Shown piece by piece: positions 25,781 to 35,183 of a stretch of 41,698 bases of DNA. Source of the DNA: Desulforamulus aquiferis (GTDB taxonomy: Bacteria > Bacillota > Desulfotomaculia > Desulfotomaculales > Desulfotomaculaceae); NCBI GenBank assembly GCA_004143605.1, contig AWVY01000035.1, forward strand, positions 5,233 through 46,930, read 5' to 3'. The notes below the pieces were generated by a model. It saw only the letters and a list, made by a program, of their open reading frames with translations. It had not been told where the DNA came from and made no database searches. Position numbers and translations under genes: made by a program. The number at the start of each line of letters is the position of its first letter. Position 1 is the stretch's first letter.

Positions 25781-25902
25781 GCTTGATATTGAATAGAAGC
25801 TGTCCAATCTTTATAAAAAATGCAAAAACTAATAAATTTAAATGCATTTGCATGTTGACCTGGTAAACCTGTTTTAGTATAATAACTCTTGCATGGTGAT
25901 GC

Positions 25903-25977
25903 TCCTCGATAGCTCAATGGTAGAGCAACCGGCTGTTAACCGGTAGGTTGTAGGTTCGAATCCTACTCGGGGAGCCA
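25903..25977 (+). tRNA. tRNA-Asn (GTT)
   Basis: Full cloverleaf: acceptor TCCTCGA/TCGGGGA, D-arm AGCTCAATGGTAGAGC, anticodon loop CTGTTAA with GTT, T-arm GTAGG-TTCGAAT-CCTAC, encoded CCA. First of a four-tRNA cluster after sigA. Confidence 0.97.
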
Positions 25978-25985
25978 ATATTATC

Positions 25986-26059
25986 GGGCCTATAGCTCAA
26001 TGGTAGAGCATCCGGCTCATAACCGGCTGGTTCCAGGTTCGAATCCTGTGGGCCCACCA
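25986..26059 (+). tRNA. tRNA-Met (CAT), one T-arm base missing
   Basis: Acceptor GGGCCTA/TGGGCCC, anticodon loop CTCATAA with CAT, encoded CCA. The T-stem reads CCAGG-TTCGAAT-CCTG then enters the acceptor, one base short; CCTGG is expected. It is an elongator-type molecule, since the first pair is G-C. The missing G fits the general base-loss error in this window. Confidence 0.93.
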
Positions 26060-26098
26060 CTTTGAATCCTTACTGGTGGCATTTACAAAATTTAATAC

Positions 26099-26174
26099 GG
26101 CCCCTTGGTCAAGTGGTCTAAGACACCGCCCTTTCACGGCGGTAACACGGGTTCGAATCCCGTAGGGGTCACCA
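26099..26174 (+). tRNA. tRNA-Glu (TTC)
   Basis: Acceptor GGCCCCT/AGGGGTC, anticodon loop CTTTCAC with TTC, T-arm ACGGG-TTCGAAT-CCCGT, encoded CCA. Confidence 0.97.
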
Positions 26175-26179
26175 TATAA

Positions 26180-26255
<76 letters not shown>

Positions 26256-26258
26256 ATC

Positions 26259-26287
26259 AAACCTCACTAAAGCATGTGAGGTTTTTT
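26259..26287 (+). terminator. Terminator of the tRNA cluster
   Basis: AAACCTCAC pairs with GTGAGGTTT around TAAAGCAT, followed by TTT. Confidence 0.9.
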
Positions 26288-26310
26288 GCTGTTTTAGAAT
26301 GAGAAAAATG

Positions 26311-26359
26311 CAGGGACGGCTCTTTTGCTCCTTGAAAGGAAGTAAAAGAGCCGTCCCTG
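26311..26359. repeat. REP-like palindromic element
   Basis: CAGGGACGGCTCTTTT (26311-26326) and AAAAGAGCCGTCCCTG (26344-26359) are exact 16-bp inverted arms, extended imperfectly toward a GAAA loop. The GGGACGGnTCTTTT type of palindrome is widespread in Firmicutes and associated with REP-type transposases (from memory); no such transposase lies in this window. It could also terminate the regulator gene on the minus strand. Confidence 0.7.
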
Positions 26360-26361
26360 GG

Positions 26362-27077
26362 TCAGGATTGCTCAGAATCTTTATTATTTCTCAGGGTGGT
26401 CAATACACTGCTTAGATGTTCTTCCATGGTCTTTTTTGCTTCATCCGGCCTACGTTCTACGATGGCGGTTAAGACCTTTTCGTGTTCGTCAATGGAACGA
26501 AGGGCGCGTCCAGGAATGGTATGGGTTTCGTCAGAGGTTGTTTCGAGAAGATTTAAGATATTTTCAGTCATCATGGCTACTACCGGGTTCTGGGAGGCTT
26601 CAGCAATACACAAATGAAAATTACGGTTTAAATCTACGAAACGGTCTGCATAGTCGACTGGGTCCACACTTCTAGCCTCTTCAAGAAGACTTCTAATTCT
26701 CTGGTAGTCTTCTTCGGTACAGCGCTCAGCGGCCCAGAAGGCCGAAGCCTTTTCTAATAGGATCCTTACCTCATATATGTGTTCTAAGGTTTCAAGGTTG
26801 TATGACAGAAGACTGGAAAGCTGTCTGCCAACTGCATTGCTGTCCACTGTGGAAACGAAAATGCCCACACCGTGCTTGACCTCTAGAAGGCCGATGCCAG
26901 CAAGGTTTTCACGGCATCTCGTATTACAGTCCTACTGACGCCAAACTTTTCAGCCATCAATCTTTCAGTGGGTAGACGGTCGCCAGGCTTTAATTTTCCT
27001 TTAGCTATAAGGTTTTGAATATAACCAGCAACCTCATTTCTCAGGGATTCGCTGCGACCAATACGATTATCAAACAA
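26362..27077 (-). CDS. FadR-type GntR regulator of the sulfolactate locus, one frameshift
   Basis: About 239 aa. N-terminal winged helix (SLRNEVAGYIQNLIAKGKLKPGDRLPTERLMAEKFGVSRTVIRDAVKTL) and C-terminal all-helical FCD ligand domain (EVRILLEKASAFWAAER, DLNRNFHLCIAEAS, DEHEKVLTAIVERRPDEAKKTMEEHL). The two parts join when one base is restored near 26880 (GLLEVKHGVGIFVS). TTG 27077 is nine bases behind CGGGAG; the longer open frame upstream lacks a start signal. It is divergent from slcC. Palindromic GGTAATACC in both promoters is its likely operator; sulfolactate or sulfopyruvate the likely effector (inference). Confidence 0.86.
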
Positions 27078-27108
27078 GGATATCAACTCCCGCGTTATAA
27101 AATGGCAT

Positions 27109-27119
27109 TGGTAATACCA
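27109..27119. promoter_or_regulatory. Candidate operator TGGTAATACCA at the regulator promoter
   Basis: TGGTAATACCA is palindromic about its central A and lies about 32 bp upstream of the regulator's TTG, just downstream of a minus-strand promoter-like TTGTGT-18-TATGAT. It shares GGTAATACCA with the slcC promoter operator, consistent with autoregulation by a FadR-family protein. Confidence 0.6.
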
Positions 27120-27260
27120 CACCCGTATCATACTATATAACTTACCCAAGACACAACTTGTTTTTGTAAAGGAACATATATCCAATGCAAACAAACTTGT
27201 CCCCAAAAAGGGAATAAACTGTCGAAATAGCAAGATTGAAATAGTTATTTATTGAACATA

Positions 27261-27274
27261 GTCACCTGGGTGAC
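27261..27274. promoter_or_regulatory. Palindrome GTCACCTGGGTGAC upstream of the slcC promoter
   Basis: GTCACC and GGTGAC are perfect arms around TG, ten bases before the -35. The location suits an activator, and the arm resembles half-sites of CRP/FNR-family proteins in reversed order. Identity of the binding protein is unknown. Confidence 0.4.
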
Positions 27275-27283
27275 ATTTTGGGT

Positions 27284-27339
27284 TTGACGGAGATAGGGAG
27301 AAAAGGTACAATGTAATAGGTAATACCACATACCTATTA
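27284..27339 (+). promoter_or_regulatory. slcC operon promoter with operator over the start site
   Basis: TTGACG (27284-27289), 17-bp spacer, TACAAT (27307-27312) is a good sigma-A promoter. TAATAGGTA (27314-27322) and TACCTATTA (27331-27339) are perfect 9-bp inverted arms covering the predicted start site, with GGTAATACC at 27319-27327 inside. Binding there would block transcription, so the FadR-type protein should be a repressor. Confidence 0.7.
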
Positions 27340-27449
27340 CTTTATACCTTACTACATACATGCAATAAACTATAGGTGTGGATGAAATTAAACAAATTTA
27401 CTTAAACTAGAACAACCAAGTCATAATTGTAAAAAACGAGGTGACTAGT

Positions 27450-28382
27450 ATGAAAGCCGTAGTAACAGAACTTATTTGGGAAGAAGGTCTAGAGGTTTTA
27501 CGCGAACAGGGTGAGGTTAAATATGACCAGAACCTGTGGAAGAGTGATAATCTTTTAGAGACAATTAAGGATGCGGATTTGCTAATTGTAAGGAACCAAA
27601 CAAAAGTAACCAGGGAATTAATGGAGCAGGCGCCTAATTTAAAGGTTGTTGGAAGATTGGGTGTTGGGCTTGATAACATTGATGTTGCTGCTGCCAAGGA
27701 GCTAAACATTAAAGTGGTCTTTGCAAGAAATGCTAATGCAGTTTCGGTTGCTGAGTATGTATTTTCCGCAATGTTTGCATTTTCTCGCCCCTTGGAGAAA
27801 GCTTCACAAGATGTTAAAAAGGGCAACTGGAACCGTAAATTATTTACCAGAGAAGAAATCTATGGCAAGACACTAGGACTTGTAGGGGTTGGTGAAATAA
27901 GTGCTAGACTAGCATCAAGGGCTAAAGCCTTTGGGATGAATGTAATTGGCTTTGATCCATTTTTACCCCCTTACGAATTAGCCTGCACTGATATTGGAGT
28001 ACGCATGGACTCCCTGGAGAAAGTGCTGGCAGAGTCTGATTATGTAAGCCTTCATGTACCATTAAATGATCAAACTAGAAATCTTATTAACCGGGATAGT
28101 ATAAAGACCATGAAAAAGACCGCCTATGTTATCAACACGGCTAGAGGTGGTGTAATAAACGAGGATGACCTCTACGAAGCAATTAAGGCAGGAGAAATTG
28201 CCGGGGCTGCACTTGATGTCCTAATAAAAGAGCCTCCCCAGGGTAATAAGCTCCTGGAATTGGAAAATGTAATAGTAACACCACATATTGCAGGGCTTAC
28301 TGAAGAGGCTCAAGTTCGAACCTCAGAGTTAGTGGCCAGAGAGTGCCTAAAGGTACTCAAAGGCAGGGCTCTATGTGCATAG
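27450..28382 (+). CDS. slcC: (S)-sulfolactate dehydrogenase
   Basis: Intact 310-aa D-isomer-specific 2-hydroxyacid dehydrogenase. NAD-binding Rossmann loop GLVGVGEISARLASRA, catalytic Arg in NTARGGVINEDDL, Glu in IKEPP and His in TPHIAGLTEEAQ. ATG 27450 follows GAGGTGA. Alone it could be a phosphoglycerate dehydrogenase relative; next to comC and suyAB it is assigned as SlcC, which oxidises (S)-sulfolactate to sulfopyruvate with NAD. It is the first gene of the operon under the operator-controlled promoter and is followed after 29 bp by comC. Confidence 0.87.
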   Translation: MKAVVTELIWEEGLEVLREQGEVKYDQNLWKSDNLLETIKDADLLIVRNQTKVTRELMEQAPNLKVVGRLGVGLDNIDVAAAKELNIKVVFARNANAVSVAEYVFSAMFAFSRPLEKASQDVKKGNWNRKLFTREEIYGKTLGLVGVGEISARLASRAKAFGMNVIGFDPFLPPYELACTDIGVRMDSLEKVLAESDYVSLHVPLNDQTRNLINRDSIKTMKKTAYVINTARGGVINEDDLYEAIKAGEIAGAALDVLIKEPPQGNKLLELENVIVTPHIAGLTEEAQVRTSELVARECLKVLKGRALCA

Positions 28383-28411
28383 TAAGGTAGAAAAGAAACG
28401 GAGGGCTGTAG

Positions 28412-29449
28412 ATGAATTTCACCGCTTCACAACTAATAGAGTTTTGCTCCAGCCTGCTCCAGGGAGCCGGAGTTCCCAAGGCTGATGCTGATATTGTAGC
28501 AGATGTGCTTGTAGATACCAGTTTGGAAGGTTTAGATACTCATGGGATAAGCAGACTTCCCATTTATCTCACAAGGATTCAAAACGGTAGAATAAACCCC
28601 AAGGCAGAAATCAAAGTAAATAAAACAGCTCCTGCTGTAGCTAATATTGATGGTGATAATGGGCTGGGACAACTGGTAGGGGTCAAAGCCATGGATGTAG
28701 CCATTGAACTGGCAAAAGAGGCTGGAGTTGGCTCGGTGGCCGTAAAACATAGTAATCACTACGGAGCCTCCTCTTACTTCTGTAAACAAGCCAGTGCAGC
28801 AGGTATGGTAGGACTTGCCTTTACTAATACCCCTTCAGGAATTCCGCCGTGGGGTGGTAAAGAAGCATATTTTGGTACAAACCCAATAGCATTTGGCTTT
28901 CCTGGCAAGGAACAGCCAGTGGTGGTGGATATGTCCTCCAGCATCGTAGCAAGGGGCAACATTATATTGGCAGCAAAGCAGGGAAAACCAATTCCTGAAG
29001 GTTGGGCCATTGACAAGGATGGTCTACCCACCACTGATGCAAAGGCAGCCCTTGATGGCGCAGTACTCCCAATGGCTGGCCCCAAAGGTTATGCCATGGC
29101 CCTTGCAGTTGAGGCTATGTCCGGTGTGTTAAGCGGCTCTGCAGTTGGTAAAGAAGTTGGCTGGATCTATGATGAAAGTACCAAACCAGTTGATATTGGA
29201 CATTTCTTTATAGCTATGGATGTGTCAAAATTTATGCCCATGAATGAATTTCTAGGTCGAATGGATCAAATGATAACAGAGATCAAAGGGTCTCCTAAGG
29301 CAGCTGGGACCGATGAAATATTCATTCCTGGTGAGCGTAGATTCAATAAGGCTAAGATACGCCAGCAAGAAGGTATTCCAGTTACTGACCAGCTTTTAGC
29401 TGAGCTAAATCAATTGGCTCAAAGCGTAGGAGTTAAGCCGTTAGGCTAA
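28412..29449 (+). CDS. comC: (R)-sulfolactate dehydrogenase (malate/L-lactate dehydrogenase family)
   Basis: Intact 345-aa member of the LDH2/MDG2 fold family, unrelated to classical malate dehydrogenases. SLEGLDTHGISRLPIYLTRI, VKHSNHYGASSYFCKQA (catalytic His), GTNPIAFGFPG and MAGPKGYAMALAVE are the family signatures. In the known bacterial pathway ComC reduces sulfopyruvate to (R)-sulfolactate, completing racemisation with SlcC so that SuyAB can act. Its family also holds ureidoglycolate and other 2-hydroxyacid dehydrogenases; the assignment rests on neighbours. ATG 28412 follows GGAGGG. Confidence 0.85.
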   Translation: MNFTASQLIEFCSSLLQGAGVPKADADIVADVLVDTSLEGLDTHGISRLPIYLTRIQNGRINPKAEIKVNKTAPAVANIDGDNGLGQLVGVKAMDVAIELAKEAGVGSVAVKHSNHYGASSYFCKQASAAGMVGLAFTNTPSGIPPWGGKEAYFGTNPIAFGFPGKEQPVVVDMSSSIVARGNIILAAKQGKPIPEGWAIDKDGLPTTDAKAALDGAVLPMAGPKGYAMALAVEAMSGVLSGSAVGKEVGWIYDESTKPVDIGHFFIAMDVSKFMPMNEFLGRMDQMITEIKGSPKAAGTDEIFIPGERRFNKAKIRQQEGIPVTDQLLAELNQLAQSVGVKPLG

Positions 29450-29462
29450 AATAATAAAGGTT

Positions 29463-29492
29463 TGCCAAAGTACTTTATTAAAGTACTTGGTA
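29463..29492 (+). other. Intercistronic hairpin between comC and suyA
   Basis: AAAGTACTTT (29467-29476) pairs with the following AAAGTACTT, extended by CCA/TGG, with a loop of a few bases and no full T run. It may protect or process the suyAB messenger. Confidence 0.5.
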
Positions 29493-29543
29493 AAAAATAT
29501 AAATTAAAGGCTACTAAAGTAGCACAAAAAGGAGGAAGCAACC

Positions 29544-29821
29544 TTGATTAAATTCTTGATCCATGACGAACAAGACATGGTTGGTGTAGCCGTAGCTGAT
29601 ATTAAAACCGGCGAAGCCGTAATCGGTAAGATCCAGGACTCCGACAAAACTGTTGAAATCAATCCGTAAGTGATATCCCCCTAGGTCACAAAATTGCTCT
29701 CCGTGACATGGCTGCCGGAGAAAGAGTAATTAAGTACCATGTTCCCATTGGCAAAACCGTCCAAGCTATTAAAGTGGGCGAGCATGTACACACTCATAAT
29801 CTAAAGACTGAAAGGTGGTAA
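29544..29821 (+). CDS. suyA: (2R)-sulfolactate sulfo-lyase alpha subunit, one frameshift
   Basis: Small subunit of sulfolactate sulfo-lyase, about 92 aa, a single SAF domain of the UxaA N-terminal type. It starts at TTG 29544 behind GGAGGA with IKFLIHDEQDMVGVAVADIK, and ends VGEHVHTHNLKTERW, the hallmark end of SuyA/UxaA. A base is missing near 29669 (NPLSDIPLGHKIALRD resumes in the next frame), which hides the gene from simple frame searches. With SuyB it removes sulfite from (R)-sulfolactate to give pyruvate. The stop is six bases before suyB. Confidence 0.92.
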
Positions 29822-29827
29822 GATAAA

Positions 29828-30986
29828 ATGTCAGTACCGACTTTTATGGGTTACCGTCGTGAAAACGGCACAGTTGGTTGCAGAAACCATGTAATTATCC
29901 TTCCTGTTGATGATATCTCCAACGCGGCATGTGAAGCGGTAGCTTCCCACGTTCAAGGCACCATGCTCTTCCACATCCCTATGGTCGCCTGCAGTTTGGT
30001 GAAGACTTAGAGCTGCATTTCCGTACACTGATTGGTACCGGTGCAAACCCCAACGTGGCAGCTGTAGTAGTTATTGGTATCGAGCCTAACTGGACCAACC
30101 TGGTGGTAGATGGTATCGCTAAGACAGGTAAGCCCGTGGCTGGTTTCTACATTGAGCGCCATGGTGATTTCAAAACCGTTGAAATGGCTTCCCGCAAGGC
30201 GATGGAATTTGTACAGTATGCAACCGAATTAAAGAAAACCGAATGCAGCTTTACCGATATGACCATCAGCACCAAATGCGGTGAGTCTGACACCACTTCC
30301 GGTTTAGCTTCCAACCCCTCCATTGGTCGTCTTTATGACCGTCTGGTAGATATGAACATGACCCTGTTCTTTGGTGAAACCTCAGAGGTTACCGGCGGTG
30401 AGCACCTGGTTGCCGATCGCTGCGCTACTCCTGAAATTAGAGAAAAGTTCATGAAGACCTGGACTGAGTATGATGCTTTCATCAAGAGCCAGGGTGTAGA
30501 CCTTTGTGGTACCCAACCTACCCAAGGCAACATCGCTGGTGGTTTAACCACCATTGAAGAAAAGGCCCTTGGTAACATTCAAAAGATTGGTAAGAAGGCT
30601 ATGGTACAAGGTGTACTGGCCCCTGCAGAAGCTCCACAGGGTAAAGGCCTGCACTTCATGGATACCTCCTCAGCCGCTGCTGAGTGTGTAACCCTGATGG
30701 CTGCCGCCGGTTCCATTTGCCACTTCTTCCCCACAGGTCAGGGCAACATTGTTGGTAACCCCATCATCCCTGTGATTAAGTATGTGCCAACCCCAATACT
30801 GTATCAACTATGTCTGAGCACATTGATGTTGACCTGAGCGGTATTTTACGTGGTGAGATGGATCTGGATGGTGCAGCTGATGCCCTTATGTCTATGATGA
30901 TGCGCACCCTTAATGGCCGCATGACTAATGCTGAAGTTCTTGGTCATAAGGAATTTGTACTTACCAAGCTGTATCGTAGCGCTTAA
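29828..30986 (+). CDS. suyB: (2R)-sulfolactate sulfo-lyase beta subunit, two frameshifts
   Basis: Large catalytic subunit, 386 aa after correction, same length as known Suy[82 protein letters not shown] and the ending [19 protein letters not shown] match SuyB rather than altronate dehydratase UxaA. Cysteines in KCGESD and others could hold a metal or Fe-S site. Losses near 29985 (CCTTATGG read as CCTATGG) and 30779 (AAGGTATGTGCC read as AAGTATGTGCC) break the frame. Codons are strongly biased to GGT, ACC, ATC and AAC, suggesting high expression. Confidence 0.94.
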
Positions 30987-31005
30987 TTAACTATTCTTTT
31001 CAGTT

Positions 31006-31042
31006 CGGGTGTAAGGGGATCAACCTTGATTCCTTACACCCG
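31006..31042 (+). terminator. Hairpin after suyB
   Basis: CGGGTGTAAGG (31006-31016) pairs perfectly with CCTTACACCCG (31032-31042); the following sequence is GCAAATAATATCC without a T run. It is a partial terminator or 3'-end stabiliser. The rest of 30987-31293 holds no gene; it ends in AAAGGAGG before tctC and includes TAAAAT and two GTTAAC palindromes that may belong to a second promoter. Confidence 0.6.
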
Positions 31043-31293
31043 GCAAATAATATCCTTCCTTTGTCATCCCTGTTGCATTTATTCCTGGTATAACTGTTAG
31101 AGAACTGTAAGATTTCTATATTTTATGCCAAAAAATCAGAATATTTTAAATGAGTATTACCATAAGCGTAACATGCTTGTAGAAATGTTCAAAATTGGTA
31201 CAGAGAAAACTGGTGCATAACATAAAATTATTTGGTATATTGGTAACTGTATTGTTAACAATGCAGCCAGTTAACTAAAAAGGAGGATTACTC

Positions 31294-32283
31294 GTGCGCA
31301 GACCAAAGATGCTCGTATTAATGGTAACCCTTTTATTCACAATGTCTTTCTTGGCCGGTTGCGGTAGTTCAAAAGCCCCCGAAGAGGCTGGAAGTAAGTA
31401 TCCCGAAAAGCCAGTTAATATGATTATCGCCTTCACTGCAGGCGGTTCCAGTGACGTACAAGCTCGTCTAATGCAAAAATACTGGAACAAATATGTTCCT
31501 TCACAGCCCTGGACTTTTATTTATAAGTCTGGTGCCGGTGGAGCAATCGGCTTCAATGACATCGCTAAGGCTGACAAGGATGGTTATACCATCGGTGGTG
31601 TAAACGTGCCTCATATCGTTTTGCAACCAATTGGCCAAGGTGCACAGTACAAGCCTGAAGACTTTGACTATATTGCCCAGGTAGTAACAGATCCCCAGGT
31701 TCTAGTTGTTAAGAAGGATAGTCAGTTTACCTCTGTACAAGATGTAGTAGAATATGCCAAGGCTAACCCTGACAAGTTAAAAGTAGGTATCACCGGTACC
31801 TACACCGGTAACCATATGGCCCTACTGGACTTCCAGGATCAAGCTGGTGGTATCAAAGTTGCTCAAATCGTTTACAAGGGTGCCGCTGACCTGAACGCAG
31901 CGCTCCTTGGCGGTGAACTTGATGTAATGATGGGTAACTACAATGATGTAATGCGCAGCCTGGATATGATGACTATTCTAGGTATTGCTACTGAGGAAAG
32001 ATATGCTCCTCTGCCAGATGTACCTACCATGAAAGAGCAAGGTGTTAATGTGGTAGCAGATATCCGTCGTGGCTTTGTGGCACCTAAGGGTATACCTGAA
32101 GATAGCCTGAAGTTCCTGCGTGACACCTTTGAGAAAATTGCTAATGACCCAGACTATGTTGCTGATATGGAAAAGGCCGGTCAACCCCATGACTACCTGA
32201 GTGGTGACGAGTTCGAGAAGTATGTAATGGAACAACAGAGCCACGCTCAAGATCTGTTAACTAAGTTTGGCCTTATGAAGTAA
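31294..32283 (+). CDS. tctC: TctC-type solute-binding lipoprotein, probable sulfolactate receptor
   Basis: Intact 329-aa extracytoplasmic binding protein of a tripartite tricarboxylate transporter. A signal peptide ends in lipobox L20-A21-G22-C23, so the protein is lipid-anchored on the outer face. KYPEKPVNMIIAFTAGGSSDVQARL and PVTMKEQ-like LPDVPTMKEQGVNV, plus FVAPKGIPEDSLKFLRDTFEKI, are TctC signatures. GTG 31294 follows AAGGAGG. Such proteins bind small organic anions; the suy neighbours point to sulfolactate, like SlcH of other bacteria. Codon choice is as biased as in suyB. Confidence 0.9.
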   Translation: MRRPKMLVLMVTLLFTMSFLAGCGSSKAPEEAGSKYPEKPVNMIIAFTAGGSSDVQARLMQKYWNKYVPSQPWTFIYKSGAGGAIGFNDIAKADKDGYTIGGVNVPHIVLQPIGQGAQYKPEDFDYIAQVVTDPQVLVVKKDSQFTSVQDVVEYAKANPDKLKVGITGTYTGNHMALLDFQDQAGGIKVAQIVYKGAADLNAALLGGELDVMMGNYNDVMRSLDMMTILGIATEERYAPLPDVPTMKEQGVNVVADIRRGFVAPKGIPEDSLKFLRDTFEKIANDPDYVADMEKAGQPHDYLSGDEFEKYVMEQQSHAQDLLTKFGLMK

Positions 32284-32297
32284 TCGCCTAAAATAGT

Positions 32298-32331
32298 AGG
32301 GTAGGAGGATTGACTTCAATTCTCCTACCCT
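32298..32331 (+). other. Intercistronic hairpin between tctC and tctA
   Basis: AGGGTAGGAG (32298-32307) pairs perfectly with CTCCTACCCT (32322-32331) around 14 bases, no T run after it. Such a hairpin after a binding-protein gene often keeps its messenger more abundant than the permease message. Confidence 0.65.
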
Positions 32332-32372
32332 GTTCCACCAGTTAGCAAAAATATCGGAAAAGAGGTGGATCT

Positions 32373-33891
32373 ATGTGGGAGCATATGCTGGCAGGTCTTC
32401 TAAATGCAATGACACCGGTTAACCTGCTAGTTGCTGCATTAGGAATTACCGGCGGTATCTTGATTGGGGCCCTTCCTGGGCTAACAGCCACCATGGGGGT
32501 AGCCCTTTTAGTACCACTAACATTTGCAATGGATCCTGCAACAGGCTTGGTTATGTTAGGGGCAGTATATACAGGTGCAATTTACGGTGGTGCCAACTCA
32601 GCAATTTTGATTAACACACCAGGCACACCGTCCTCAGTAGCTACTACCTTTGACGGCTGGCCCCTATGTAAGCAGGAAGGGCAGACGAAGCCCTCATTAC
32701 TTCCCTATTCTCTTCCTCCTTTGGCGGGATTGTTGGAACCATATTCTTAGCCTTTGTCGCAGTTCCACTGGCCATATTCTCGTTGAAATTTGGAGCTCCT
32801 GAATTTTTCTGGTTATGTATTTTTGGACTCAGTACCATTGCAGCCATGTCTATGGACAATGTACTGAAGGGATTGATTTCCGGTGCTATTGGCCTGTTAA
32901 TTGCTTGTATCGGATTGGATCCGATGACCGGAGCACCACGCTTTACCTTTGGCAGTTACTCCATGGTTCAAGGAATTGAAGTAATTCCAGCATGATTGGT
33001 CTATTCTCATTTTCTCAGGTAATTAACTTGGTAGGCAGCAGAGATAAATTCATTGCAGACTATAAACAACCCCAGGTGCATTAAGACGGGTATTAACCAA
33101 GATATATCAAAAATGTAAGATGAACATTATGCGTTCATCCCTGATTGGTACTGTTGTTGGTATTCTCCCCGGCGCCGGTGGAGAAATAGCCTCTATTATA
33201 GCTTACAATGAAACTAAGCGATGGGATAAAGATCCTGCTAAATATGGCAAAGGTGCCATTGAGGGCGTAGTAGCCTCTGAAAGTGCCAATAATGCTGTAA
33301 TCGGTGGTTCTTTAATTCCGTTGTTAACATTAGGGATCCCCGGTAGTGCTGTGGCCGCTATTATTATGGGAGGTCTTCTGGCACACGGAATTGCCCCTGG
33401 CTTTAAAATCTTTACCCAACACGGAGATGTAGCCTATACCTTCATTATGTCCCTGATTGTGGCTAATATCTTAATGTTTTTGTGGGACTGGCCTTAATTA
33501 AAGGCACTGCCCGCATCTTAAACATTCCAACCTCTTACATTGGTGTCGGTGTCGTGGTACTTTCCATTATCGGCTCCTATGCTATACGTAACAGTATGCT
33601 AGATGTGGCATGATGATTGTATTCGGTCTCATCGGGCATTTTGGAGGACGTATAGGTCTGGATACAGGTGCTATGGCCCTGGGTTTAATCTTAGGCCATA
33701 TCATTGAAGAAAACCTTGGTAAATCCATGGCTTTAGCCGGAGCAGAAGGATCTATATGGGCCGTGTTCTTTGGCAGCACCATCTCCTTTATTTTAATATT
33801 GCTGACAATAGCTTCGGTGATGACCCCCTTCTTCCTTAAGAAACGTGCAGCTAAAGCAGCTGCTGCCAGGGGAGGTGCCAAAGTTGACTAA
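32373..33891 (+). CDS. tctA: TctA-type large membrane permease subunit, about five frameshifts
   Basis: About 507-aa integral membrane transporter with ten to twelve helices when rejoined. Signatures GILIGALPGLTATMGVALLVPLTF, YTGAIYGGANSAILINTPGTPSSVATTFDGWP near the N-terminus, and GTVVGILPGAGGEIASIIAYNETKR and IPLLTLGIPGSAVAAIIMGGLLAHG in the middle are diagnostic for TctA. Losses near 32678, 32991, 33078, 33483 and 33607 split it; each is one base and each neighbouring piece continues the family sequence. It moves the substrate delivered by TctC using an ion gradient. It overlaps tctB by 8 bp. Confidence 0.9.
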
Positions 33892-34333
33892 AAGAAAAGT
33901 TGATATTTTGACTGGTATAGTGTGTTTTGTGGTTGCGGCAGTTTTTTGGTTCCAGGGACGGGAGCTAGAAGCTCATCACAATCTGTTCCCGCTATTACTG
34001 GAAGGATTTCTGGTCCTCTCTGGTATCTACCTAATCATTGCAGGGGTATTGAATAAAACTGGTAACAAGGCGGACAATGTAAATATCGATTATGGTCGAG
34101 CTTTACAAATGATCTTGGCTACCATAGTTTACATTGTTGCAGTTAATATGATTGGCTTTTATGTTTCCAGTATGCTGTTTTTAACATTGATGTCTTGGTA
34201 CCTAAATGAAAGGGGCCTTACGCTGCCGGCTTTAGGCATTTCTTTAGCCTTTGCAACCATTTTAACTGGAGCCATTTATGCTGTATTTACCATGTTCCTA
34301 AGGGTACCAACTCCTTCGGGAATACTGTTTTAA
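33884..34333 (+). CDS. tctB: TctB-type small membrane subunit
   Basis: 149-aa four-helix membrane protein. Hydrophobic stretches DILTGIVCFVVAAVFWF, LFPLLLEGFLVLSGIYLIIAGVL, MILATIVYIVAVNMIGFYVSSMLFLTLMSW and GISLAFATILTGAIYAVFTMFL fit TctB, the poorly conserved small subunit. TTG 33884 lies behind GGGGAGGTG and overlaps the last codons of tctA, so the two membrane subunits are made together. Gene order here is C-A-B. It closes the sulfolactate operon before a terminator. Confidence 0.87.
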   Translation: MTKRKVDILTGIVCFVVAAVFWFQGRELEAHHNLFPLLLEGFLVLSGIYLIIAGVLNKTGNKADNVNIDYGRALQMILATIVYIVAVNMIGFYVSSMLFLTLMSWYLNERGLTLPALGISLAFATILTGAIYAVFTMFLRVPTPSGILF

Positions 34334-34336
34334 ACC

Positions 34337-34383
34337 AGGAAACCAGCCCAATAGTTCTTTGAACAGGGGCTGGTTTTCTTTAT
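34337..34383 (+). terminator. Terminator of the sulfolactate operon
   Basis: GGAAACCAGCCC pairs with GGGGCTGGTTTTC around a loop of about 20 bases, followed by TTTATAT. Confidence 0.82.
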
Positions 34384-34484
34384 ATATGAAATAAATGGAC
34401 ATAAAATGGCCATGCTTAAAAGAAAAACTGAAATTAAGAGGATTTTATTGTCCATTTGCAGAAACATTTATTTGAGGTATCAAC

Positions 34485-35183
34485 ATGCTAAAAATTAGTA
34501 ATCGTTTAGAAACTATGGCCAGATACGTCCCAAAGGGAAGTATCGTTGCGGATATAGGCACTGATCACGGTTATTTGCCTATATATTTGGTTGCAGGTGG
34601 TTCCTGCCCCAGGGCTGTAGCAGGGGATATTAACCTTGGACCACTGGAGGCTGCAAGATTGAATGTGGCCAATAATAATTTAACAACAAAGATCGATCTT
34701 AGATTAGGTAATGGATTACAAATCCTTAAGCCTGGTGAGGTTGAGGTTATTTGCATAGCCGGGATGGGAGGCGGCACCATAAGGGACGTTCTGTCAGAAT
34801 CCCCAGAGGTTGCCAAAGCTGCCAGGAGACTAATCCTTCAGCCAATGGCAGATGAAGCAGAGTTAAGGCGATATCTAACGACAACCGGCTGGTATATATT
34901 GGATGAAGAGCTATTAATGGAAGATGGGCGTCTGTATCTAGTTATCGTTGCTGAACAAGGTAATAATTGTCAGTTAGATCCGGTACTGTTAGAATTAGGG
35001 CCAAGACTAGTTGAGAAAAACCATCCTTTGCTTAAAGAACTTATTGATAGGCTGTTATTGAAATACAATAAGGTATTAACCGGTTTATTTAAGAGCACTA
35101 ACCACCAGTCCATTAAAAAAGCAGAAATGATAAAGGATAAAATTAATCAAATAAGAAAAGTGGAAGAGAAACTGCTTAATTAA
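34485..35183 (+). CDS. trmK: tRNA (adenine(22)-N(1))-methyltransferase
   Basis: Intact 232-aa SAM-dependent enzyme methylating A22 in the D-loop of tRNAs. Motif I VADIGTDHGYLPIYL, motif with GDINLGPLEAARLN, and the catalytic-region AGMGGGTIRDVL, then the C-terminal coiled-coil helical domain (from about 165) typical of TrmK. ATG 34485 follows GAGGTATC. In B. subtilis the homologue yqfN lies soon after sigA and next to yqfO, the same neighbours as here apart from the inserted tRNA and sulfolactate block. Confidence 0.93.
   Translation: MLKISNRLETMARYVPKGSIVADIGTDHGYLPIYLVAGGSCPRAVAGDINLGPLEAARLNVANNNLTTKIDLRLGNGLQILKPGEVEVICIAGMGGGTIRDVLSESPEVAKAARRLILQPMADEAELRRYLTTTGWYILDEELLMEDGRLYLVIVAEQGNNCQLDPVLLELGPRLVEKNHPLLKELIDRLLLKYNKVLTGLFKSTNHQSIKKAEMIKDKINQIRKVEEKLLN

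Follow-up and report, generated by a model that had tools for sequence, protein, structure and literature searches.

Gene content and order of the locus

We analysed a stretch of 41,698 nucleotides (the window; G000:C35:5233-46930) from the genome of Desulforamulus aquiferis, which is assembled into 69 contigs totalling 3.57 Mb, with an estimated completeness of 72%. The results showed that positions 26362-34333 carry the genes for a FadR-type (GntR/FCD) regulator, SlcC, ComC, SuyA, SuyB and a TctC-TctA-TctB carrier, in this order, with the regulator gene divergent from slcC-comC-suyA-suyB-tctC-tctA-tctB (Table 1). The cluster is flanked by rpoD and four tRNA genes (Asn, Met, Glu and Val) on one side and by trmK on the other. 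A first-pass annotation had placed eight genes here in one compact unit; Pfam and NCBIfam family matches bore out their place and order, and its coordinates held for the genes but needed widening for the control region between the regulator gene and slcC (approximately 27078-27440).

Sequence comparison leads us, with good confidence, to read the locus as an operon by which a sulfate-reducing Desulforamulus breaks down sulfolactate, and this pathway reading is very likely correct. The SlcC-ComC-SuyAB pathway itself is already known from other bacteria, which limits the interest of the locus; new in this copy are a conserved putative operator and a variable chromosomal spot.

Table 1. Features of the predicted sulfolactate locus, in window coordinates
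Feature	Position	Strand	Basis and remarks
FadR-type regulator (GntR DNA-binding + FCD)	26362..27077	-	one frame break; Pfam; start TTG 27077 (own reading)
Weaker operator-like core GGTAATACC, before the regulator	27110..27118	.	3 mismatches to the full 16-base motif
Promoter-like site TTGACG-17-TACAAT	27284..27312	+	sigma-70 scan, 10/12
Inverted repeat, 20-base arms, 8 apart	27303..27350	.	contains putative operator core GGTAATACCACATACC at 27319-27334
slcC, predicted (S)-sulfolactate dehydrogenase	27441..28382	+	D-2-hydroxyacid dehydrogenase family; no C-terminal ACT-length extension
comC, predicted (R)-sulfolactate dehydrogenase	28412..29449	+	malate/L-lactate dehydrogenase family; PDB 2X06
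suyA, predicted sulfolactate sulfo-lyase small subunit	29544..29821	+	one frame break; SAF; D. ruminis alignment
suyB, predicted sulfolactate sulfo-lyase large subunit	29828..30986	+	two frame breaks; Pfam, tree
Strong hairpin, suyB-tctC gap	31005..31043	+	fold vs shuffles; no T-run in terminator scan
tctC, substrate-binding protein, tripartite tricarboxylate-type carrier	31294..32283	+	Pfam TctC 1e-40
tctA, large membrane subunit	32373..33891	+	several frame breaks; Pfam
tctB, small membrane subunit	33845..34333	+	Pfam TctB 6e-15

SuyB groups with sulfolactate sulfo-lyases

SuyB matched the Pfam families GD_AH_second (5e-19) and GD_AH_C (1e-65). SuyA is a separate small SAF-type subunit adjoining SuyB and aligns with suyA of Desulfotomaculum ruminis (D. 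ruminis), a congener of the host of the window in which suyB has been reported; its second piece matched SAF (Pfam E 3e-5), while the first piece (29523-29669) gave no NCBIfam match and, in Pfam, only a weak one to MutS_II (E 0.007). When SuyB was searched against 398 genomes of the phylum, 120 gave a match at 1e-20, and 21, including that of D. aquiferis, reached at least 63% identity, the next best standing at 47%. We then built a SuyB tree of 57 rows chosen from 121 (64 dropped). The results showed that 44 rows (at least 58% identity) split from 13 UxaA-type rows with an SH-aLRT support of 100, with very long branches among the 13. The clade of 44 includes a Cupriavidus pinatubonensis protein adjoining hpsN and hpsO, together with members from Paracoccus, Halomonadaceae and Desulfovibrio. 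These results point to SuyAB as a sulfolactate lyase and not an altronate or galactarate dehydratase, as the first-pass annotation had proposed; the grouping with those dehydratases that would have refuted the proposal did not appear in the tree.

D. ruminis (G203; loci L115, L116 and L117) carries four suyB copies, each beside a suyA. They are 85-86% identical to suyB of the window and 99-100% identical among themselves, which likely reflects recent duplication or gene conversion. One copy adjoins a 2,3-dihydroxypropane-1-sulfonate (DHPS)-type gene set and one stands alone.

Two dehydrogenases from families of opposite stereo-preference

SlcC belongs to the SerA-related D-2-hydroxyacid dehydrogenase family (Pfam 2-Hacid_dh_C, 3e-62) and is linked to suyAB. 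It grouped with suy-linked rows in the tree and is 84-85% identical to SlcC of D. ruminis, comparison with which makes ATG 27450 a likelier start than GTG 27441. Its nearest matches without suy linkage were mostly full-length SerA-type proteins of approximately 525-570 aa, and excerpts of one report place the SlcC of Chromohalobacter salexigens within or beside the SerA group (PMC6303947).

ComC matched Ldh_2 (PF02615; 2e-134, 449 bits), and its best PDB match was 2X06, the L-sulfolactate dehydrogenase of M. jannaschii (E 8e-83). In the ComC tree, seven rows from anaerobic Bacillota formed a clade of their own (100/97), and the mostly Pseudomonadota ComC proteins formed a separate clade (100/100). 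Unlinked rows were picked as best matches to the window, and duplicate loci were left out before the SlcC tree and the first ComC tree. The first ComC tree forced at least two changes of the suy-linked label. In the second, the M. jannaschii and P. horikoshii enzymes were added, 13 rows were taken out (near copies and one long branch), and the ComC of locus L127, unlinked in the first tree, was counted as linked because it adjoins slcC and the operator motif described below, approximately 10 kb from suyB. All 41 linked rows then fell together on the same side of a branch (support 89), and we no longer argue for a separate origin of ComC.

By the naming rules, D-sulfolactate is the (S) form and L-sulfolactate the (R) form. 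SlcC and ComC, from the D- and L-2-hydroxyacid dehydrogenase families, should interconvert the sulfolactate enantiomers, and we infer the use of both enantiomers from this opposite stereo-preference.

We also noted that the nucleotide-binding loop of SlcC reads GVGEIS in the window, whereas one D. ruminis copy (L115) has GVGEIG, a difference that is either real or a sequence error. In a search for SlcC-like proteins, the SlcC of the window was the sole match at 1e-60 in its own genome. Three congeners (G119, G151 and G203) had at least one match each, G203 also having a 546-aa SerA-type protein; serA is likely broken or missing in this assembly.

The TctCAB carrier

TctC, TctA and TctB are all present and make up a complete tripartite tricarboxylate-type carrier (SlcHFG-like). 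TctA was recovered in three pieces with Pfam TctA matches (1e-31, 3e-33 and 6e-51), and its last piece, 33592-33891, had no convincing family of its own. TctC is 71% identical to the TctC that follows suyAB in D. ruminis and 53-66% identical to TctC at loci L124, L077, L049 and L071, where the TctA pieces are 74-78% identical. Proteins related to the carrier accompany suyAB in D. ruminis (TctC only), G252, Desulfosporosinus and Desulfovibrio. The carrier is tied to sulfolactate by association only, and sulfolactate is its presumed substrate.

The first-pass annotation had taken the C-A-B order of the carrier genes to differ from proteobacterial clusters, which was not borne out: Litchfieldella (Halomonadaceae) has suyAB-TctC-TctA-TctB-slcC-comC. 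Candidatus Desulfopertinax likewise has TctC-TctA-TctB, and the order was discarded as a novelty.

The suyB-tctC gap (307 bases) folds with a z of -4.2, none of 100 shuffles being equally stable. Its hairpin, which was not among the terminator-like sites of the terminator scan, might set the expression of the carrier.

A putative operator upstream of slcC

The two pieces of the regulator matched FCD (4e-29) and GntR (1e-13), and it shares 68-71% identity with its counterpart in the D. ruminis cluster. The compared regulators have in common an FH pair and two more histidines in the FCD domain; FCD-domain histidines have a metal role.

We scanned 25800-35000 for inverted repeats with arms of at least 20 bases and a spacing of at most 120 bases. 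The sole one found, 27303-27322 / 27331-27350, lies in the regulator-slcC gap, and its core GGTAATACCACATACC begins six bases past the -10 box of the promoter-like site. The sigma-70 scan of the region gave 16 promoter-like sites against 17.2 expected, with no enrichment and no support by itself for the site; similar boxes precede the operator in most of the relatives compared. The weaker core GGTAATACC is a possible autoregulation site of the regulator.

The motif GGTMATACCWCATACC recurs at suy, slc and com genes of other anaerobic Bacillota. Among 12 genomes of the order, there were five exact occurrences in four genomes, all five at sulfolactate loci. Across the 398 phylum genomes we found seven exact occurrences in six genomes against three for the reversed control; the other two sites lie before a UxaA-type pair (L154) and near no listed suy-type gene (L153). 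With one mismatch allowed, the 12 genomes held 17 motif places against four for the reversed control, and half of the 12 one-mismatch places (6/12) lay away from known sulfolactate loci, four of them in the genome of the window. We next searched 96 loci centred on suyB, a sample that favours matches near suy genes and includes several loci from one genome. All six exact sites and five of the six one-mismatch sites adjoin the start of suyA, slcC, comC or the regulator gene, and the remaining one-mismatch site precedes by 174 bases a further site that itself lies before suyA; for two-mismatch sites the figure was 4 of 12. With the motif reversed, the counts at 0, 1 and 2 mismatches were 0, 0 and 2. 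A FadR-type gene stands at six of the eight loci with 0-1 mismatch (L035, L077, L090, L117, L121 and L124); of the other two, L116 shares a genome with L117, and L127 had no FadR-type gene flagged. On these findings, repression of the slcC promoter by the FadR-type regulator, acting through the putative operator, is probable. A literature search joining sulfolactate, GntR and operator returned no description, and calling the operator undescribed rests on such searches alone; suyR is cited as a known regulator gene in excerpts of PMC6018796.

A riboswitch in the control region was rejected, the Rfam search of 26000-34600 giving tRNAs only. In two Desulfosporosinus loci (L077:9438 and L090:9417), the motif before suyA runs into tandem ACCACAT repeats. 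The exact motif at L154:1501-2020 (G002), before a different UxaA-type pair, suggests that the same regulator family may control other dehydratase operons.

Comparison with known systems

Taurinivorans muris, a sulfite-respiring anaerobe, likewise has slcC, comC, suyAB and a tripartite tricarboxylate-type carrier, and expresses the SlcC-ComC-SuyAB route on sulfolactate, according to excerpts of PMC10507020; it belongs to a different phylum from the host of the window. The cluster of C. salexigens (Denger and Cook 2010, as cited in excerpts of PMC12421959, PMC10507020 and PMC6018796) was represented here by that of Litchfieldella (L065). Like the window, L065 combines suyAB, TctC-TctA-TctB, slcC and comC in a single unit and has a divergent regulator of the GntR family, but this regulator carries UTRA, not FCD, and SlcC and ComC are only 42% and 35% identical. 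The statement of the first-pass annotation that the regulator type is unlike the halomonad one therefore held. C. salexigens is an aerobe.

Closer to the window, D. ruminis L117 (G203) belongs to the same genus and has a divergent FadR-type regulator, slcC, comC (84%) and suyB (approximately 85-86%), with the exact motif upstream of slcC. It differs in its carrier order (B-A-C), its TctA (36%), a further suyAB-TctC that follows, and its chromosomal place. Ca. Desulfopertinax (L121) has the same gene set and the same regulator side, but without slcC. Excerpts of PMC6278857 count D. ruminis as one of the firmicutes that have candidate suyB genes and describe Desulfovibrio DF1, which respires the sulfite released by SuyAB, as proposed here, but makes sulfolactate in the cell from DHPS by DhpA and SlaB; slcC and comC are not mentioned in those excerpts. 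The SlcC-ComC-SuyAB route has also been described in a Paracoccus (PMC12421959) and in acidobacterial genomes (PMC6018796), in both cases from partial texts. A literature search joining Desulforamulus and sulfonate found nothing.

Proposed mechanism and fate of sulfite

We propose that the TctCAB carrier would import sulfolactate, and that SlcC and ComC, each working in a presumed direction, would interconvert the (S) and (R) forms via sulfopyruvate without net redox change. SuyAB would then split (R)-sulfolactate into pyruvate, supplying carbon and electrons, and sulfite, which DsrAB would reduce; sulfolactate could therefore act simultaneously as electron donor and acceptor. A repressor of the FadR type may sit on the putative operator with the core GGTNATACC, immediately past the -10 box, and may be released by sulfolactate or a related acid.

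The sulfite is probably respired, because dsrAB and an aprA with a broken frame are both present in the genome. The dsrA match scored 589 bits against a cut-off of 393, with a second sulfite-reductase gene adjoining, and aprA lies in two adjacent pieces (model positions 1-284 and 278-616), each under the whole-protein cut-off. From dsrAB and the two-piece aprA, the organism looks like a sulfate reducer, and the presence of dsrAB agrees with the first-pass view of an anaerobe. A complete two-enantiomer sulfolactate pathway is thus predicted in a sulfate-reducing firmicute, and the putative control switch would predict which anaerobes respond to sulfolactate. Sulfolactate makes up 5% of endospore dry weight (PMC9826295), and the pathway would therefore link spore and plant material directly to sulfide in anoxic settings such as soil, sediment or rumen.

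Alternative explanations

Several points weigh against a sulfolactate operon. All of its support is sequence comparison, and several of the cluster genes are frame-broken in this assembly. The best NCBIfam match of SlcC was phosphoglycerate dehydrogenase, below the cut-off, and the deep forks of the SlcC tree lack resolution, a single origin with Chromohalobacter-type SlcC being neither shown nor excluded. ComC scored 327 bits against the cut-off of 500 for NCBIfam NF040650 (L-sulfolactate dehydrogenase). Five other proteins, namely the ComC of D. ruminis, Litchfieldella, Cytobacillus and Rhodobacteraceae, at least three of them encoded beside suyAB, and one unlinked homologue, also fell short of it; linked and unlinked proteins missed this cut-off alike, and it therefore does not tell them apart. 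Most genomes with suyB lack the motif: of the 21 in the phylum whose SuyB reaches at least 63% identity, only 4 have it, in exact form, at a sulfolactate locus, and a fifth (G386) has it approximately 224 kb from its own suyB. A sugar-acid dehydratase operon, with SuyAB an altronate/galactarate-type dehydratase and the dehydrogenases acting on another 2-hydroxyacid, would fit the Pfam families that SuyAB has in common with those enzymes, its sole PDB match (galactarate dehydratase) and the operator motif before another UxaA-type pair in G002. We regard it as highly improbable, given the fully supported clade with the SuyB of C. pinatubonensis (beside hpsNO), Paracoccus, Halomonadaceae and Desulfovibrio, and the fact that every unlinked UxaA-type match stays at or below 47% identity. 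The frame breaks of the regulator gene, suyA, suyB and tctA (the last in five overlapping frames) could instead mean that the operon is decaying and no longer functional in this strain, to which we give very little weight. The essential rpoD and aprA are broken in the same way, and the breaks between slcC and suyB are net one-base gaps in the alignment with D. ruminis, as fits sequence error; intact copies of the broken genes are present in relatives. The breaks are probably sequence errors, the simplest cause, as rpoD has them too.

If a sulfolactate operon is accepted, its substrate and its control can still be read in other ways. Sulfolactate might be only an intermediate, the operon completing the breakdown of another imported sulfonate (DHPS or cysteate). 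This is suggested by the second D. ruminis cluster (L115), where slcC-comC-suyAB stands beside an iron-type alcohol dehydrogenase, an aldehyde dehydrogenase and a HIBADH-type gene, much like the DhpA-SlaB-SuyAB route given for Desulfovibrio DF1 in excerpts of PMC6278857. None of these three genes occurs in the cluster of the window, however, and an inverter made of two dehydrogenases suits a racemate or an (S) form taken up from outside. A search of the genome of the window for relatives of the HIBADH-type protein found none at E 1e-20, a weak point given the incomplete and frame-broken assembly. From a search that covered the DHPS-type route but not cysteate routes, we consider the intermediate role quite unlikely and retain imported sulfolactate. 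Somewhat unlikely, too, is a motif before slcC that is read by a factor other than the adjacent regulator, or that acts in an RNA leader. Locus L127 lacks a flagged FadR-type gene, and the inverted repeat could form a transcript hairpin; against this stand the FadR-type gene at six of the eight loci, the seventh locus being in the same genome as one of them, the Rfam result, and a core that is kept across the relatives, as the full inverted repeat is not. Control by the FadR-type regulator remains the preferred reading.

A variable spot next to tRNA-Val

ComC was found in two of nine genomes of the genus, the present one included, and trmK in all nine. We took the region upstream of trmK in six of the other eight. 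The results showed that the order dnaG-rpoD-tRNA(Asn, Met, Glu, Val)-trmK was kept in all six, with a methyl-accepting chemotaxis gene between tRNA-Val and trmK in every one. The window has no match to this gene at 1e-15 and has the sulfolactate cluster in its place. D. ruminis, whose sulfolactate loci are situated elsewhere in the chromosome, has the chemoreceptor gene at this spot together with an additional segment that includes a second tRNA-Val and one or more genes of the RAMP family. The spot is therefore variable. No att-like repeat of at least 11 bases was common to 26100-26360 and 34300-34520.

More tentatively, and as a possibility that we do not favour, the anaerobic Bacillota system may be an assembly distinct from the proteobacterial one, with its own ComC branch, an FCD repressor reading GGTNATACCNCATACC over the promoter, a hotspot of cargo exchange at tRNA-Val in this genus, and the scavenging of sulfolactate as donor and acceptor. 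If this were true, sulfate reducers would draw sulfolactate from spores, plants and algae for both purposes at once.

Between the two tRNA-Val genes of D. ruminis, the segment L231:5075-13752 contains genes of the RAMP family and others like them (type III CRISPR-like). Just past tRNA-Val in the window, at 26313-26357, lies an inverted GGGACGGCTCTTTT repeat; similar repeats occur in Firmicutes.

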